Positions 1,336 to 24,419 of a DNA stretch of 64,000 nucleotides are shown here, piece by piece. The notes under the pieces were generated by a model. That model searched no databases, was not told the origin of the DNA, and saw only the letters and a list, made by a program, of their open reading frames with translations. Numbering within the stretch: position 1 is the first letter of the stretch; each line of letters begins with the position of its first letter. Source of the stretch: Isosphaeraceae bacterium EP7 (GTDB taxonomy: Bacteria > Planctomycetota > Planctomycetia > Isosphaerales > Isosphaeraceae); the NCBI GenBank assembly GCA_038400315.1, contig CP151667.1:6769174-6833173 (forward strand). The letters run 5' to 3'. The position numbers were made by a program, and so were the translations under genes.

Positions 1336-2817
1336 CTACGTCCCGCAGAACGTACGATACGCGCCATCACCGGGGGGCGGGTCCTGATACTCTGCCAGAT
1401 CCGCCCTCGCCTGATACGGCGACGCCAGCGCCTCCAGCAACCGGTGCAGAACGGACAGGTCGTCCTGCTCCTCGGCGGACGACAGCGCCTCCTCCACGCG
1501 GTGGTTCCGCGGGATGACGGCCGGGTTGACGGACTGCATCAAGGCGTAGGCCGTCGCCTTGGGCTGGCCGTCCCGTCCGAGCCGCTCCTGCCAACGGAAG
1601 TGCCAGGCCTGGAAGTCCGGTGCCCGGTACCGGTCGTCGGCCAAAGGCTCCTCCGATGACAGGTCGCGGAACGTGTTGGTGAAATCGGCTCGTGACGCTT
1701 GCATCCAGTCGAGCAGCGACCGGATCAGCTCGAGGTCGCCGACCTCATCGGTCTGGAGCCCTAGTTTCCTCCGCATCCCGGCGAGCCAATACTGCTCGAA
1801 CATGGCGGGAAACGCTTCGAGCGCCTCCGTGGCAAGCGCGACCGCCGTTTCGGGCTCCGGATCGAGCAGCGGCAGAAGGGTCTCGGCGAACCGGGTCAGG
1901 TTCCACTGCACGATGTTGGGCTGGTTGCCGTAGGCGTACCGGCCACCGTGGTCGATCGAGCTGAACACCGTCGCGGGATCATAGGCATTCATGAACGCGC
2001 AGGGGCCGTAGTCGATCGTCTCCCCGGAGATCGCCACGTTGTCGGTGTTCATCACACCGTGGACGAACCCGACGAGTTGCCAGCGGGCGACCAGCGAGGC
2101 CTGACGGTTCGAGACCTCTCGGAAGAACTCCGGATACTTGCGCGGATGATCGGACAGTTCCGGGTAGTGTCGGGCGATCGCGTAGTCGGCCAGTTCCCGC
2201 AGGGCTGTTTCGTCCCGGCGGGCCGCGAACTCGAACGTGCCGACCCGGATGTGGCTGGCAGCCACGCGAGTCAGGATTGCTCCTCGCCGGATCGACTCTC
2301 GGTAGACCGGCTCGCCCGTGGTGACGACCGCGAGGCTCCGCGTCGTGGGGATGCCAAGCGCGGCCATCGCTTCGCTGATGACGTACTCGCGGAGCATCGG
2401 CCCGAGGGCGGCGCGGCCGTCGCCGCCGCGGGAGAACCGCGTCCGACCCGACCCCTTGAACTGGATGTCGACGAGTCGGCCGGGCGGCGTCCGGTGCTCG
2501 CCCAGCAAGATGGCCCGCCCATCGCCGAGCATCGTGAACCCGCCGTACTGGTGCCCGGCGTAGGCCTGCGCGATGGGTTGTGAACCGTCCGGCAGGGCCT
2601 GGCCCGCGAATAATGCCGCAGCGGTTTCGGGGGAGAGACCCGCGAGGTTGAGGCCGAGTTCGTCCGCGAGCCTGTGGTTCAGGATCGACACGCGCGGTTC
2701 CCGCACCGCAGCCGGGTTGACGGGGTTGAAGAGAACGTCCGGCAGCCGCGCGTAGGTGTTTTCGAACCGCCAGCCGACACTGTCGGGGGCCGCATCCGAT
2801 GCGGTTGGGGTGACCAT
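1336..2817 (-). CDS. selO: SelO/YdiU family protein adenylyltransferase
   Basis: A 493-residue protein, the usual length for bacterial SelO, a pseudokinase-fold enzyme that transfers AMP from ATP to protein side chains and is linked to redox homeostasis. Visible family motifs are AGHQYGGFTMLGDGRA, then FKGSGRTRFSRGGDGRAALG (nucleotide binding), then MNTDNVAISGETIDYGPCAF (metal and catalytic region). The C-terminus ends FCGT, where a conserved Cys near the end is normal; it is Cys here, not selenocysteine. A GGAGG-type ribosome site lies 6 bases before the ATG. It lies downstream of the RtcB cluster on the same strand, about 140 bp beyond the small ORF. Confidence 0.95.
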   Translation of the reverse strand: MVTPTASDAAPDSVGWRFENTYARLPDVLFNPVNPAAVREPRVSILNHRLADELGLNLAGLSPETAAALFAGQALPDGSQPIAQAYAGHQYGGFTMLGDGRAILLGEHRTPPGRLVDIQFKGSGRTRFSRGGDGRAALGPMLREYVISEAMAALGIPTTRSLAVVTTGEPVYRESIRRGAILTRVAASHIRVGTFEFAARRDETALRELADYAIARHYPELSDHPRKYPEFFREVSNRQASLVARWQLVGFVHGVMNTDNVAISGETIDYGPCAFMNAYDPATVFSSIDHGGRYAYGNQPNIVQWNLTRFAETLLPLLDPEPETAVALATEALEAFPAMFEQYWLAGMRRKLGLQTDEVGDLELIRSLLDWMQASRADFTNTFRDLSSEEPLADDRYRAPDFQAWHFRWQERLGRDGQPKATAYALMQSVNPAVIPRNHRVEEALSSAEEQDDLSVLHRLLEALASPYQARADLAEYQDPPPGDGAYRTFCGT

Positions 2818-2953: not shown

Positions 2954-3151
2954 TCAACGGCTCATCGAGCAGGATTTGGAGAGGCGTTTGAGAGCAACGC
3001 CCTCATCCAGGTCGATGGGGCGATTCTCCGTCAGCTTCCGCCGGATTGTCCGGAAGGACCAGCCGAGCCTCTTGGTTGGCTCGGGCTGGCCTCCCGTCTC
3101 ATTCGTATCGTCGAGCTTCTCGCGGATGCTGCGAGGCTCGGCGGGCGTCAT
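2954..3151 (-). CDS. Small hypothetical ORF coupled to rtcB
   Basis: A 65-codon frame whose ATG overlaps the rtcB TGA as ATGA, the usual arrangement for translational coupling. The product is basic and hydrophilic (it begins MTPAEPRSIREKLDD and has RTIRRKLTENRP in the middle), with no signal peptide or membrane segment. Third-position GC is good in the first two thirds and drops towards the end. I recognise no family. It may be a genuine last gene of the Ro60/RtcB operon or a chance frame in a GC-rich gap. Confidence 0.4.
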   Translation of the reverse strand: MTPAEPRSIREKLDDTNETGGQPEPTKRLGWSFRTIRRKLTENRPIDLDEGVALKRLSKSCSMSR

Positions 3152-4389
3152 CCCTTGACGCACACGATCTGCTTCAGCTCGTAGACGACTTCGATCAGGT
3201 CCGACTGAGCCGCGATGACCGCCTCGATCGGCTTGTAGGCCGCCGGGCTCTCGTCGAGCACCTCCGGATCCTTCCTGCATTCGACGCCGTTCGTGGCCGC
3301 CTCGTGCTCGGCCAGGCTGATCTTTCGGATCGCCTCGCCGCGGCTCATGGCGCGGCCTGCGCCGTGCGAGCAGCTGTGGAACGAATCCGCGTTACCCTTG
3401 CCTCGGACGATGTAGGAGCGGGCCCCCATCGAACCCGGGATGATTCCCATGTCGCCCTCGCGGGCGCGCACGGCTCCCTTGCGGGTCAGCCAGACGCTCT
3501 TTCCAAAATGGTTCTCCTTGGCGACGTAGTTGTGATGGCAATTCACGGCCACCTCGTCGACGTCCCCGAGCTTTCCGGGGAAGTGGTTCGCAAGAACAGA
3601 AAGGACGCTGGCCATCATGACGTCGCGATTCAGCCTGGCGAACTCCTGCGCCCAGTGCAGGGCCTCGACGTAATCATCGAACAGCGCGGAGCCTTCCGGG
3701 ATGTAGGCGAGGTCGGCGTCCGGCAGGTGGATGAACCACCGCTCCATGTCCCGCTTCGCCCGCTGGATGAAGTACGTGCCGATCTTGTTGCCGATGCCGC
3801 GACTGCCGGAGTGGAGCATCGCCCAGACGGCCTGATGCTCGTCGAGGCAGATCTCGATAAAGTGATTACCCGTCCCCAGGGTGCCGACATGGTTCGCCGC
3901 CTTCTCGGCCGCACGCGCGATGCCGGGATGCTTGGCGACGATGGCCGCAAGTCGCGCTCGCAATGACGGGCCCTGGGCATCCGTGGTCATCGACATCGCG
4001 GCGGCTTCCGTCACCTCTCCCCAGGCCCCCCGATCGTTCGGCCCGCCGTTGTCGGTCCTCCCATGCGGGACCGCCGCTTCGATGCCCGATCGCAGCGCGT
4101 GCAGATTGTCCGGCAGGTCGGAGGCGCGGATACCCGTCCTGACGGCCATCATGCCGCAGCCGATGTCGACCCCCACGGCCGCCGGAATGATCGCACCGAC
4201 CGTGGGGATGACCGAGCCGATGGTCGCCCCCATCCCCCAGTGCACGTCGGGCATGACCGCGACGTGGTGGTGGATGAAGGGCATCTTGGCAACGTTGCGA
4301 AGCTGCCCGAGCGCCTTGTCTTCAACCTGGACGCCCTCGGTCCAGCCGAAGATGGGGACGACCCCCTTGCCCAGAAACTGCTTAGCCAT
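3148..4389 (-). CDS. rtcB: RNA-splicing ligase RtcB
   Basis: A 413-residue protein, the typical bacterial length. RtcB joins 2',3'-cyclic phosphate or 3'-phosphate ends to 5'-OH RNA ends using GTP and Mn2+. Motifs seen: MPDVHWGMG, VGVDIGCGM (metal-binding Asp and Cys, about residues 72-80), GTLGTGNHFIE, and SCSHGAGRAMSR (the His there, about residue 341, is the guanylylated nucleophile in the family). The ATG overlaps the end of the upstream Ro60 gene by 8 bases, so the two are cotranscribed and probably translationally coupled. In other bacteria rtcB is often linked to rsr and Y RNA genes, which fits this locus. Confidence 0.97.
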   Translation of the reverse strand: MAKQFLGKGVVPIFGWTEGVQVEDKALGQLRNVAKMPFIHHHVAVMPDVHWGMGATIGSVIPTVGAIIPAAVGVDIGCGMMAVRTGIRASDLPDNLHALRSGIEAAVPHGRTDNGGPNDRGAWGEVTEAAAMSMTTDAQGPSLRARLAAIVAKHPGIARAAEKAANHVGTLGTGNHFIEICLDEHQAVWAMLHSGSRGIGNKIGTYFIQRAKRDMERWFIHLPDADLAYIPEGSALFDDYVEALHWAQEFARLNRDVMMASVLSVLANHFPGKLGDVDEVAVNCHHNYVAKENHFGKSVWLTRKGAVRAREGDMGIIPGSMGARSYIVRGKGNADSFHSCSHGAGRAMSRGEAIRKISLAEHEAATNGVECRKDPEVLDESPAAYKPIEAVIAAQSDLIEVVYELKQIVCVKG

Positions 4390-5692
4390 TGGTCGCCTCG
4401 TACTTCTCGAGATACGTCAACACCTTGTCCGACCAGCCGTCGATGTGGACCCAGGAGCCGTAGCCGACCCCGTTCTTGTTGCTGGCCACGTTGATCATGT
4501 ACCCCTTGAGCTGGGGCACCGGGTCGTGGCTCTGCTCGTCGGTGATCACGATCAGTCGGTCGCGCGGAGGCAACGAGTTTACGGCCTTGCCGAGTTCGGT
4601 CCCCCCGTGGGGCTGCGAACCGACAATTGCGTCACGCAGGGCGAAGCCTCGGCGTCCGGGCACCTCGATCAGGCTGTTGGAGAAGGTGAAGACACAAAGG
4701 TCGTCGAACATCTCGCGACCGATCATGGCCAGCGAGCAGGCGACGTCCATCCGGTTCAACTCGGACTTACCCGAGAGCCGACTATCCATCGACCCCGACA
4801 CGTCGACCAGGATGACCGTCTTGCCCTTCTGCGTCTCCTTTCCTGCGAAGCACTCGAAGAACTTCGCTTCCAGCTCGGGTTCGAACTGCGGGTTGTGGCG
4901 TGCGGACGCGATGAAGTTGATCGGCAGCAAACGTCCGGCCTGGATGGAACGGAGCCCATCTCGGATCAGATCCGGCTCAATCCCCGCCCGGGTCATGTTG
5001 CGGACGTTGCGGAGCATGGCCAGCCCGCCGAGCTTCTTCTCGGCCAGCAGCCGCTCCCACGACGCCTTCTTGTCTCCGCCCTTGGACAGCTCGACTTCCC
5101 AGGTGTCCGGCGTCGCCAGCTCGCCCTTGACCAGTCGCTTCCAGAGTTCGGCCTGCGCCTCGTCCTTCGGCTTCGGGCGGGTGATGCGGATCGCGTCGCG
5201 CAGCTTCACGGCCTTCAGCCCGCCGTTGTACTTGGCCAGCTGATACTCATCGAACCGGCGGAACGACTCGCCAAGGTGCCGCTTGACCTGCTTGGCCAGC
5301 GGCTCGTCCTTGTTGTCTTTCCAGTACATCGCCAGGAACTCGGCGATGTCGTCGGCACGCAGGATGACTCGCGGGAAGATGTCTTTGGCCAGGTCGCGGC
5401 CCTCCTTCGTCCGCATCAGCTCGCGGGCGAGCAGGAGCGGGACGTGGCGCAGCCGCATGTCCTCCTTGGCCTGGATCGCCACGCGGGCGACGTCCTCGGC
5501 GGGGACCTGCTTCACCAGGTCGGCGATTCGCTGACCGATGGTCTGGCCGTCCTCGTAGAACTCGGACTCCCACAGCAGGCAGGACATGACCGAGCGTTCG
5601 AGTTGCGCGAGAGCGTCGGTACGACGAGCCGGGGCCCCTTCGTGCGTGAAAATCTTCCGGAGTCGGTTCAGCATTGCCATCTCAATACCCAT
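4382..5692 (-). CDS. rsr: TROVE-domain Ro60 orthologue (Rsr)
   Basis: A 436-residue protein with an N-terminal alpha-helical TROVE ring domain (about 20-280) and a C-terminal von Willebrand A domain containing the MIDAS motif DVSGSMD (about residue 296). In the family, Ro60 is a ring that binds Y RNAs on its outer surface and misfolded or 3'-tailed RNA in its cavity. In Deinococcus it is tethered by Y RNA to polynucleotide phosphorylase. Here the gene starts 10 bases after the third Y-RNA-like unit and overlaps rtcB at its end. Start: ATG at 5692; in-frame ATGs at codons 5 and 7 are alternatives, and no strong Shine-Dalgarno is seen before any of them. Confidence 0.95.
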   Translation of the reverse strand: MGIEMAMLNRLRKIFTHEGAPARRTDALAQLERSVMSCLLWESEFYEDGQTIGQRIADLVKQVPAEDVARVAIQAKEDMRLRHVPLLLARELMRTKEGRDLAKDIFPRVILRADDIAEFLAMYWKDNKDEPLAKQVKRHLGESFRRFDEYQLAKYNGGLKAVKLRDAIRITRPKPKDEAQAELWKRLVKGELATPDTWEVELSKGGDKKASWERLLAEKKLGGLAMLRNVRNMTRAGIEPDLIRDGLRSIQAGRLLPINFIASARHNPQFEPELEAKFFECFAGKETQKGKTVILVDVSGSMDSRLSGKSELNRMDVACSLAMIGREMFDDLCVFTFSNSLIEVPGRRGFALRDAIVGSQPHGGTELGKAVNSLPPRDRLIVITDEQSHDPVPQLKGYMINVASNKNGVGYGSWVHIDGWSDKVLTYLEKYEATNG

Positions 5693-5702
5693 CGATCAAA
5701 TC

Positions 5703-5799
5703 GGGCGGGGAAGAGTCGGATAGGGGTTTGCGGGGCTCGAACCCGCCACCGGCAAGCCGGTGTCAACCAAAGAAGTATCCCTATCCTGCACCACCGCCC
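5703..5799 (-). ncRNA. Y-RNA-like unit 3 (T-arm only)
   Basis: This copy is closest to rsr (97 nt). The terminal stem GGGCGG pairs with CCGCCC. After a bulged U, GG pairs with CC, followed by an internal loop UGCAGG opposite CCGACUCUU. A 6-bp inner helix AUAGGG pairs with CCCUAU (two further G-C pairs are possible). The conserved UACUU follows. The head then has a 6-bp hairpin CACCGG/CCGGTG with loop CTTG, stacked directly on a perfect T-arm: GCGGG, loop TTCGAGC, CCCGC. D-arm and acceptor stem are absent, unlike units 1 and 2. The same stem motifs in all three copies identify the family; function is inferred from linkage to Ro60. Confidence 0.85.
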
Positions 5800-5811
5800 T
5801 GTTGCGGAAAC

Positions 5812-5946
5812 CGTGCGGGGAAGAAGCGACGAAAGGCTTTTCTGTTGCTCTACCGGGCTGAGCTACGCCCGACATACGTCGGACGGCGGGATTCGAACCC
5901 GCGACACACAGGGTGGATAAGTAACTCTCGCCTGCACCACCGCACG
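5812..5946 (-). ncRNA. Y-RNA-like unit 2 with permuted tRNA-like domain
   Basis: The terminal stem CGTGCGG pairs with CCGCACG. A bulged U follows, then GG/CC, internal loop UGCAGG opposite UCGCUUCUU, inner helix CGAGAG/CTTTCG (one G-U) and the conserved UUACUU. The head is a tRNA core in permuted order: anticodon-stem 3' strand CTGT, 5-nt variable region, T-arm (GCGGG, loop TTCGAAT, CCCGC), acceptor 3' strand CGTCCGA, hexaloop CGTATG, acceptor 5' strand TCGGGCG, TA, D-arm (GCTC, 9-nt loop with GG, GAGC), A, anticodon-stem 5' strand ACAG. The 7-bp acceptor stem is complete with one G-U. Spacers of about 11-12 nt separate it from its neighbours. Confidence 0.93.
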
Positions 5947-5957
5947 ATGGTTCAAGT

Positions 5958-6086
5958 GGAGGGGGAAGAGGCGACCGAGGTTTTGACTGTTGCTCTATCC
6001 AATTGAGCTACACGGCCTTGCGACCGCGATCGGATTCGAACCGAGAACCCACAGTTCCGAAGTATCCCCGGACTGCACCACCCTCC
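5958..6086 (-). ncRNA. Y-RNA-like unit 1 with permuted tRNA-like domain
   Basis: This is the most promoter-proximal copy. The terminal stem GGAGGG pairs with CCCTCC, then a bulged U, GG/CC, internal loop UGCAGU opposite UCGCCUCUU, and inner helix CCGGGG/CCTCGG (one G-U), then AUACUU. The permuted tRNA-like head has anticodon-stem strand ACTGT (pairing with ACAGT at the other end), variable GGGTT, T-arm CTCGG-loop TTCGAAT-CCGAT (one mismatch), acceptor 3' strand CGCGGTC, a GCAA tetraloop (GNRA), acceptor 5' strand GGCCGTG, TA, and D-arm GCTC/GAGC with loop AATTGGATA. Helix sequences differ from units 2 and 3 but pairing is kept, which is covariation rather than simple repetition. Confidence 0.93.
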
Positions 6087-6332
6087 GCGTTCTCTGAGGC
6101 CGATTGGCCCGCCGAGGTTCGCTGCTTGCGAAGCGAATCCGTGCGGCCCGTCGAGAGCGTGCGCGGAGCCCGTCAACTCATGGCGCGGGGCGCCGGATCA
6201 CTCTTGCCGAGTTTCCCCGAATGAGTAACCTTGCTCGGCCAAGTCGGGCAGGCGCGCCCTCGCGGATTTCCGTCGTGTTGTTCCGGCACCGCCGCCCGCT
6301 TCGTGCCGCAACGCGAGGCAGGGAGGCCTTCC
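6087..6332. other. Divergent control region, Y RNA locus / MscS gene
   Basis: This 246-bp region separates the minus-strand Y RNA/rsr/rtcB locus from the plus-strand channel gene, so promoters for both should lie here. On the minus strand, small hairpins are visible (GGCC-AATC-GGCC, and TTCGCT/AGCGAA just upstream of unit 1). A TTGACG hexamer is present without a convincing -10 partner. I looked for a sigma-54 -24/-12 element of the kind used by RtcR-controlled rtcBA operons and did not see one. On the plus strand GGGAGG precedes the ATG at 6333. Confidence 0.4.
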
Positions 6333-24206: not shown

Positions 24207-24229
24207 GATGCGGTCCGCAAGGACAGGTT

Positions 24230-24368
24230 GAGTGATCGCCGAATCCCCGGGCAGGGACCCGGGGAGCGGGGGACCCAAATTCGTGGGGCGAATCGCGTCG
24301 GACTGGACGCGACGGGGCACCTTCGGCTCCGAGCCCGTCAGCTAACCTCGCAGGCGTCCGGAGGGAGA
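24230..24368 (+). ncRNA. Cyclic-di-AMP riboswitch (ydaO-yuaA class)
   Basis: The ydaO consensus is followed closely: GATCGCCGAATCC; a P2-type stem CCCCGGG/CCCGGGG; AGCGGGGGACCCAAATT then GGGGCGAATC; a side stem CGCGTC/GACGCG; GGCACCTTCGGCTCCGAGCC; and the core block CCCGTCAGCTAACCTCG followed by CAGGCG, which closes P1 with CGCC. In other bacteria this class binds c-di-AMP and usually turns genes off. A GTCC-GCAA-GGAC hairpin lies just upstream (about 24213-24224). The only plus-strand ORF downstream is the small one at 24508. Confidence 0.93.
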
Positions 24369-24419
24369 CAGCAGCCGGCGTTTTTGTTCTCGCCGGCGTC
24401 GACCGGAGGTCCGGTCGAC
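24354..24419 (+). terminator. Probable expression platform of the riboswitch
   Basis: Right after the aptamer, CCGG (24359-24362) can pair with CCGG at 24375-24378, extended by CG pairs on either side of a bulge and followed by TTTTTGTT (24381-24388), an intrinsic-terminator layout that shares bases with the 3' side of P1. Alternative hairpins are GCCGGCG/CGCCGGC (24374-24397) and a perfect 9-bp GTCGACCGG/CCGGTCGAC (24398-24419). Which fold forms with ligand cannot be decided by eye. Confidence 0.5.

Follow-up and report, generated by a model that had tools for sequence, protein, structure and literature searches.

The question raised by this locus is what an array of small RNA units with tRNA-like heads does ahead of a Ro60 gene. 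The locus belongs to an Isosphaeraceae planctomycete, and the array stands upstream of ro60 and rtcB on the minus strand of the window, by which we mean the whole stretch of 64,000 nt analysed here. We consider it quite probable that the array serves a Ro60 RNP, with Y RNAs that join a constant Ro60 stem to an exchangeable tRNA-derived handle recruiting a tRNA-binding partner.

Three Y RNA units ahead of ro60

The units are 129, 133 and 97 nt long and are separated by spacers of 12 nt (units 1 and 2) and 13 nt (units 2 and 3). The features of the locus are the following.

6096..6120, minus strand: promoter-like element GAACC-N18-TC, with TC starting 11 nt before unit 1
5958..6086, minus strand: Y RNA unit 1, with terminal stem GGAGGG/CCCTCC, bulged U, GG/CC, inner helix and tRNA-like head
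5986..6055, minus strand: head of unit 1, composed of anticodon strand 6055-6051, T-arm 6045-6029, closed acceptor 6028-6011, U8A9 6010-6009, D-arm 6008-5992, nucleotide 26 at 5991 and anticodon strand 5990-5986
5813..5945, minus strand: Y RNA unit 2, with terminal stem GTGCGG/CCGCAC and the same plan as unit 1
5841..5912, minus strand: head of unit 2, composed of anticodon strand 5912-5908, variable loop 5907-5903, T-arm 5902-5886, closed acceptor 5885-5866, U8A9 5865-5864, D-arm 5863-5847, nucleotide 26 at 5846 and anticodon strand 5845-5841
5703..5799, minus strand: Y RNA unit 3, with terminal stem GGGCGG/CCGCCC, inner helix GGATAGGG/CCCTATCC and a reduced head
5730..5762, minus strand: reduced head of unit 3, composed of the hairpin CACCGG-CTTG-CCGGTG (5762-5747) followed directly by a T-arm (5746-5730)
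4382..5692, minus strand: Ro60/Rsr homologue with TROVE and vWA domains, 436 aa (PF05731, E 1.2e-15)
3148..4389, minus strand: RtcB RNA ligase (PF01139, E 1.7e-131), overlapping the end of ro60 by 8 nt

The three units are bacterial Y RNAs. They adjoin the Ro60/Rsr gene, their paired 5' and 3' ends form a long stem with a conserved bulged motif, and units 1 and 2 carry a tRNA-like domain; Chen is said to have found, in 2014, at least one Y RNA with such a domain per species. The preliminary description had placed three minus-strand units at these coordinates, with GG-U-GGUGCAG on the 5' side and CUUCC on the 3' side, and had paired their terminal stems and inner helices; all of this can be read in the sequence where it was said to be. 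The terminal stem of unit 2 extends to 8 bp (5811-5947).

The head of unit 1 is a tRNA opened in the anticodon loop. Scored for this opening, units 1 and 2 reach 9.0 and 7.5 of 9 (0/300 shuffles each), which bears out the permuted order proposed earlier for their tRNA core; for unit 2, an opening at 28/29 scores nearly as high (7.0 versus 7.5). Permuted tRNA-like heads are thus found in the first two units but not in the third, which shows no tRNA topology above shuffles (205/300) and whose head of hairpin and T-arm lacks both D-arm and acceptor hairpin. The T-arm is the element present in all three units. The Rfam YrlA model (RF02553), named in the preliminary description as a check, gave 45.9 bits for unit 2 (E 6e-9) and 39.4 bits for unit 1 (E 4.6e-7) but no match for unit 3 at E ≤ 1. 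As both scores are under the gathering score of 69, the units fall outside RF02553, though the E-values still show a relationship. Model R1, built from 28 tRNA-headed units, gave 108.8 bits for unit 1 and 117.8 bits for unit 2, both of which are part of that model. Unit 3, which is in neither model, slightly prefers R2 (54.8 bits) to R1 (52.7 bits). Single-unit folding is weaker evidence (z = –1.24, –3.17 and –2.94 for units 1 to 3), and units 1 and 2, folded by themselves, have a minimum-energy structure other than the cloverleaf. The sole Rfam match above cut-off in the window is a c-di-AMP riboswitch on the plus strand (24227-24372; RF00379, 87.4 bits).

The heads do not have the marks of functional tRNAs: there is no open acceptor end for CCA, and the units are not recognised as tRNA genes. 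It is very improbable that the array goes back to tRNA genes, ordinary or permuted, whose products still mature into tRNA. An Rfam tRNA match of 28.5 bits (cut-off 29) does run from the acceptor and D-arm of unit 1 into the T-arm of unit 2, but such a match is expected from reading through two neighbouring permuted units, and a tRNA gene split across them was rejected. Moreover, ARAGORN finds no tRNA in the window and 52 distinct tRNA sequences in the stretches of the source genome scanned, conservation of the Ro60 stem is good, and TROVE genes are found alongside the strong matches.

Residues 16-432 of the Ro60 homologue align to a TROVE protein of known structure (PDB 9l5y, E 8.2e-26), and its identity to the nearest named relatives, Singulisphaera, is 78-81%; comparison with relatives suggests that the true start may be the ATG at 5680. 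Downstream of rtcB lies a gene for a SelO protein adenylyltransferase (1336-2817, minus strand). The promoter-like element, presumably of ECF type, has its TC 11-12 nt ahead of unit 1 in all 8 Isosphaeraceae loci examined; irrespective of position, the pattern is present 16 times on the two strands of the window.

Opening points of the tRNA-like heads

From the R1 and R2 matches in 88 sources (lists of 194 and 190), we hand-picked 134 units, leaving out headless units, 160-nt heads, partial-model matches, same-genome repeats and some weak matches. T-arm and acceptor hairpin could be parsed in 133 of them; four tRNA openings were scored against 300 shuffles per unit, and an opening was assigned when at most 6 shuffles did as well. 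The commonest opening is at 28/29 (52 heads), followed by the anticodon loop (24), the site before position 8 (11) and the D-loop (4), with 42 heads unassigned. By phylum, with labels assigned by hand, the 28/29 heads come from Bacillota (23), Planctomycetota (11), Verrucomicrobiota (8), Acidobacteriota (5), Bacteroidota (3) and two single cases.

The 28/29 heads have a full anticodon arm: of its five stem pairs, three lie inside a hairpin and two involve the strand after the D-arm. We examined this with a shift test in which the two outer pairs play no part in the selection. The 3-bp hairpin and its 7-nt loop are in place in 48 of the 93 units with a closed D-arm, versus 3.04 expected by shuffling. 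In these units 27-43 pairs in 48/48 and 28-42 in 47/48, the other shifts giving at most 39 and 20, and U33 is present in 46/48. Among the 28/29 heads themselves, 51 loops were parsed (one, L081 3089-3210, was dropped because its loop remained unparsed); they have U33 in 47/51, a purine at 37 in 49/51 and 25 anticodons. When re-ordered with fixed geometry, 51/51 are called tRNA with the expected anticodon by ARAGORN, versus 40/1020 shuffles, and in native order 9/51 units are called, over roughly the first 75 nt. U33 and the shift test are the cleaner evidence, since the 28/29 heads had been chosen by pairing. Fixed geometry replaced an ARAGORN test with free trimming, which found a tRNA in 109/133 heads but also in 201/798 shuffles.

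The openings before position 8 include eight Verrucomicrobia (L084-L087, L089-L092) with the order D-arm, anticodon arm, T-arm, closed acceptor. Re-ordered, these eight are called tRNA; the other three of the 11 are not, and one of those three (L076) is probably an ordinary tRNA array instead of a Y RNA. The D-loop order is common to L003 and L004 from the window's family, L019 (Gemmataceae) and L030 (Acidobacteria), and runs D-strand, closed anticodon arm, variable loop, T-arm, closed acceptor, U8A9 (AA in L003), D-strand. On these four units 95.6% of cells are paired and 12/35 pairs have changed on both sides, the D-stem being invariant among the four. The automatic score backs a D-loop opening in L003, L019, L030 and L083. 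The last has a different D-stem (GCGG/ACGC) in the same arrangement (5/300 shuffles). For unit 3 of L004 the automatic D-loop test failed (95/300), the script having set the acceptor elsewhere. L082, re-ordered by hand, reads as a class II tRNA-Leu(CAA), with an automatic test no better than shuffles (138/300); this test penalises long variable arms, and the join was placed by hand. In L037 the Rfam tRNA family is matched above cut-off in native order (3812-3862, 32.1 bits, positions 8-63). In that unit (3790-3924) the letters UACUUC, conserved among Y RNAs, can serve as the 5' strand of a D-arm, with the tRNA parts in their normal order.

Four heads were compared with the tRNAs of their own genomes for signs of recent capture. 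In Singulisphaera acidiphila, head 1 reaches at best 77.5% identity (tRNA-Asp, same anticodon) and head 2 at best 77.8% (tRNA-Thr, different anticodon); the best values are 69.9% for window head 1 and 74.0% for window head 2, seven filler letters being scored as mismatches. Hence, there is no sign of recent capture.

We next consider whether the paired elements covary and whether they keep company with Ro60. When 28 tRNA-headed units of ro60 loci in planctomycetes and Acidobacteria are aligned with MAFFT and compared with a structure written from one of them, 92.3% of cells are paired, versus 75.6% in shuffles and 40.7-54.6% with partners slid. Compensatory change, which the preliminary description had named as what relatives should show, is seen at 24/32 pairs, which changed on both sides, and it involves the T-stem, acceptor, D-stem, inner helix and terminal stem. 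Pair 28-42 is formed in only 40% of cells on this alignment, in contrast to the separate hairpin test above, probably because the columns do not line up. In an R1 scan of 45 genomes of the family, ten have matches of at least 59 bits, and the remaining 35 reach at most 50.1 bits. A full-length Ro60 is present in eight of the ten, and every one of these has a match of more than 100 bits; since R1 includes units from all eight, their scores are not independent, and what informs is the contrast with the other genomes. G006 (63.1 bits) and G010 (59.1 bits), which contributed no units to the model, lack a close full-length Ro60 but have a divergent TROVE gene with Y-like matches near it (G006:C303 and G010:C448). 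G011, which has only Ro60-like fragments, gave neither an R1 nor a TROVE match; the TROVE family search itself was run on 5 of the 45 genomes.

Overall, we lean slightly towards the view that bacterial Y RNAs hang whole tRNAs with a closed acceptor on Ro60 at interchangeable cut points (anticodon loop, 28/29, D-loop, before 8). The heads would be varied isoacceptor look-alikes, class II tRNA-Leu included, that are swapped, shrunk or lost on kept stems, and those with an anticodon loop would let the Ro60 particle engage anticodon-reading enzymes or nucleases.

Changing heads in arrays

Terminal stems are position-specific in eight Isosphaeraceae arrays. GGAGGG comes first in 8/8, GTGCGG (or GCGCGG) is second in 7/8, and GGGCGG (or GGGTGG) is third, directly before ro60, in 6/8. 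Each of the window's three stems pairs at all 6 positions with the strand that belongs to it and at 3 to 5 of them with those of the other units, a mismatch that may prevent mispairing between neighbours in a common transcript. Different genera share these stems but differ in their heads. At position 1 the head is of the anticodon-loop type in three arrays and of the 28/29 type in five. At position 2 it is of the anticodon-loop type in the window, L008 and L015 and of the 28/29 type in L003, L005 and L013. Loss, which the preliminary description had set against compensatory change, also occurs: position 2 is headless in L004, and so is the second unit of L009, which has a different stem. In Gemmataceae, e.g. 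Zavarzinella, there are additional headless units of ~60-70 nt.

Several further arrays were noted. Zavarzinella formosa has three ro60 loci (L016, L071 and L079, two of them seen in part), each with Y RNA units, and a Ruminococcus ro60 locus has about six units (L070 2367-3793). Acidobacterial loci hold Y-like units of ~160 nt (L024 1263-1423, L025 384-545, L029 1212-1374, L031 2754-2916, L035 541-696, L037 3024-3183 and L042 3081-3240) with a Ro60 stem and a related head that is apparently not tRNA-like; in an Rfam scan none of them matched at E ≤ 0.3. About 1.2 kb upstream of the S. acidiphila array lie two near-identical tRNA-Pro genes (G037:C1:3177180-3177421).

L005 and L015 share the reduced head of unit 3: mean column identity is 92%, the hairpin does not vary, and the T-arm differs at 3/17 columns. 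These three units occupy the array position at which L003 and L004 carry a D-loop head, and L015 has GGTAGA before the hairpin, like GGTAGAGC of L030. From position, stem and the L015 remnant, unit 3 looks like a pared-down descendant of a D-loop-opened head. A class II long variable arm was rejected as the source of its hairpin, the corresponding hairpin lying within the D-stem in L003, L019 and L030. Could unit 3 instead be a decaying copy without a Y RNA function of its own? The lack of D-arm and acceptor would fit such decay, as would the S. acidiphila unit at the same position (L013 3864-3986), which also looks broken. We regard it as unlikely, given that the reduced head has been kept in L005 and L015, that the stems of unit 3 are intact, that R2 gives the unit 54.8 bits from outside the model, and that heads of hairpin plus T-arm are found in Acidobacteria too.

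Possible partners and known systems

One promoter before unit 1 probably drives a transcript with the three Y RNAs, ro60 and rtcB, from which the units would then be cut out. By analogy with published Y RNAs, the terminal stem with its GG-U-GG bulge would dock on the Ro60 ring. Units 1 and 2 would present a tRNA elbow that could be bound or modified like a tRNA; the sealed acceptor, with no CCA end, argues against charging. Unit 3 would offer only its T-arm beside a hairpin. Such handles would bring a tRNA-binding partner to Ro60, as with PNPase in Deinococcus, and tethering of this kind is plausible; PNPase is encoded in the source genome (895.8 bits). No single fixed partner is obvious, since heads vary, and are even lost, between orthologous positions.

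The main rival to recruitment is that the heads are decoys or sensors for tRNA-damaging or -modifying enzymes, so that a look-alike held by Ro60 soaks up an anticodon nuclease or a repair enzyme such as RtcB. Many related heads have a plausible anticodon loop, and YrlA has been proposed as a competitive inhibitor of an anticodon nuclease (PMC7790460). According to the same paper, the RecA-dependent nuclease does not have Salmonella YrlA as a substrate, a result still compatible with a decoy. In the window, however, the best reading of units 1 and 2 places the opening in the anticodon loop, and unit 3 lacks a 7-nt anticodon loop; the decoy reading suits the anticodon-bearing relatives better than the window's own units. 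In favour of the decoy reading, rtcB overlaps ro60 here, and the preliminary description had linked the Y RNAs to RtcB. That link is weakened: RtcB lies near ro60 in 17/96 loci (L003-L098; some genomes are represented twice, and three loci have only Ro60-like fragments), and it was not found beside ro60 in any other Isosphaeraceae or Gemmataceae locus within the short flanks covered (1.5 kb or at most 4 kb by locus, ~50 nt downstream in L018). All in all, we judge decoys possible but rather doubtful, and keep recruitment of a tRNA-binding partner as the preferred reading.

If many heads keep an anticodon arm, as the 48 of 93 units with a closed D-arm suggest, and tRNAs are opened at several points, then Ro60 displays tRNA in several orientations. 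The head type would predict which tRNA-binding partners can be recruited and which cannot, the role of bacterial Ro60 would become testable, and the natural head swaps at fixed array positions would be ready-made comparisons.

Permutation as such is not new for Y RNAs, since, once circularly permuted, the structure of the Salmonella Y RNA superposes on tRNA (PMC11472068). PMC8394870 likens the tRNA-like domain to the D, T and acceptor arms. An anticodon arm or other opening points are not mentioned in the extracts of the literature searched, which lay outside the main Y RNA papers (Chen 2013, 2014; Wang 2018; the Sim reviews), so this is no proof of novelty.

YrlA of Salmonella (RF02553; PDB 6CU1) likewise adjoins rsr and has T-arm, closed acceptor and D-arm in permuted order, and the Rfam consensus pairs the strands flanking the opening, as units 1 and 2 do. 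It differs in that the window units fall below the family cut-off, with unit 3 unmatched, and in that many of their relatives have a closed anticodon arm as well or a tRNA opened at another point. In the Rsr-Y RNA-PNPase complex of Deinococcus radiodurans (RYPER), Ro60 and Y RNA genes also lie together, and the Y RNA tethers PNPase to Ro60 (PMC7790460 and PMC8394870). The window, in contrast, has three Y RNAs with two kinds of head, and PNPase is only a candidate partner. The Salmonella rsr-yrlBA-rtcBA RNA repair operon (PMC7790460) similarly unites ro60, Y RNAs and rtcB. Here, the Y RNAs precede ro60, rtcB beside ro60 is not seen in related loci within short flanks, and there is no joint RtcB/RtcA operon, the sole RTC-family (RtcA-type) match lying elsewhere in the genome (G000:C1:289653-290615, versus 6769174-6833173 for the window). 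Finally, the permuted tRNA genes of algae and one archaeon also place the 3' part of the tRNA before the 5' part; those genes mature to working tRNA (PMC3978253), whereas the heads in the window stay on a Ro60-type stem with the acceptor sealed.
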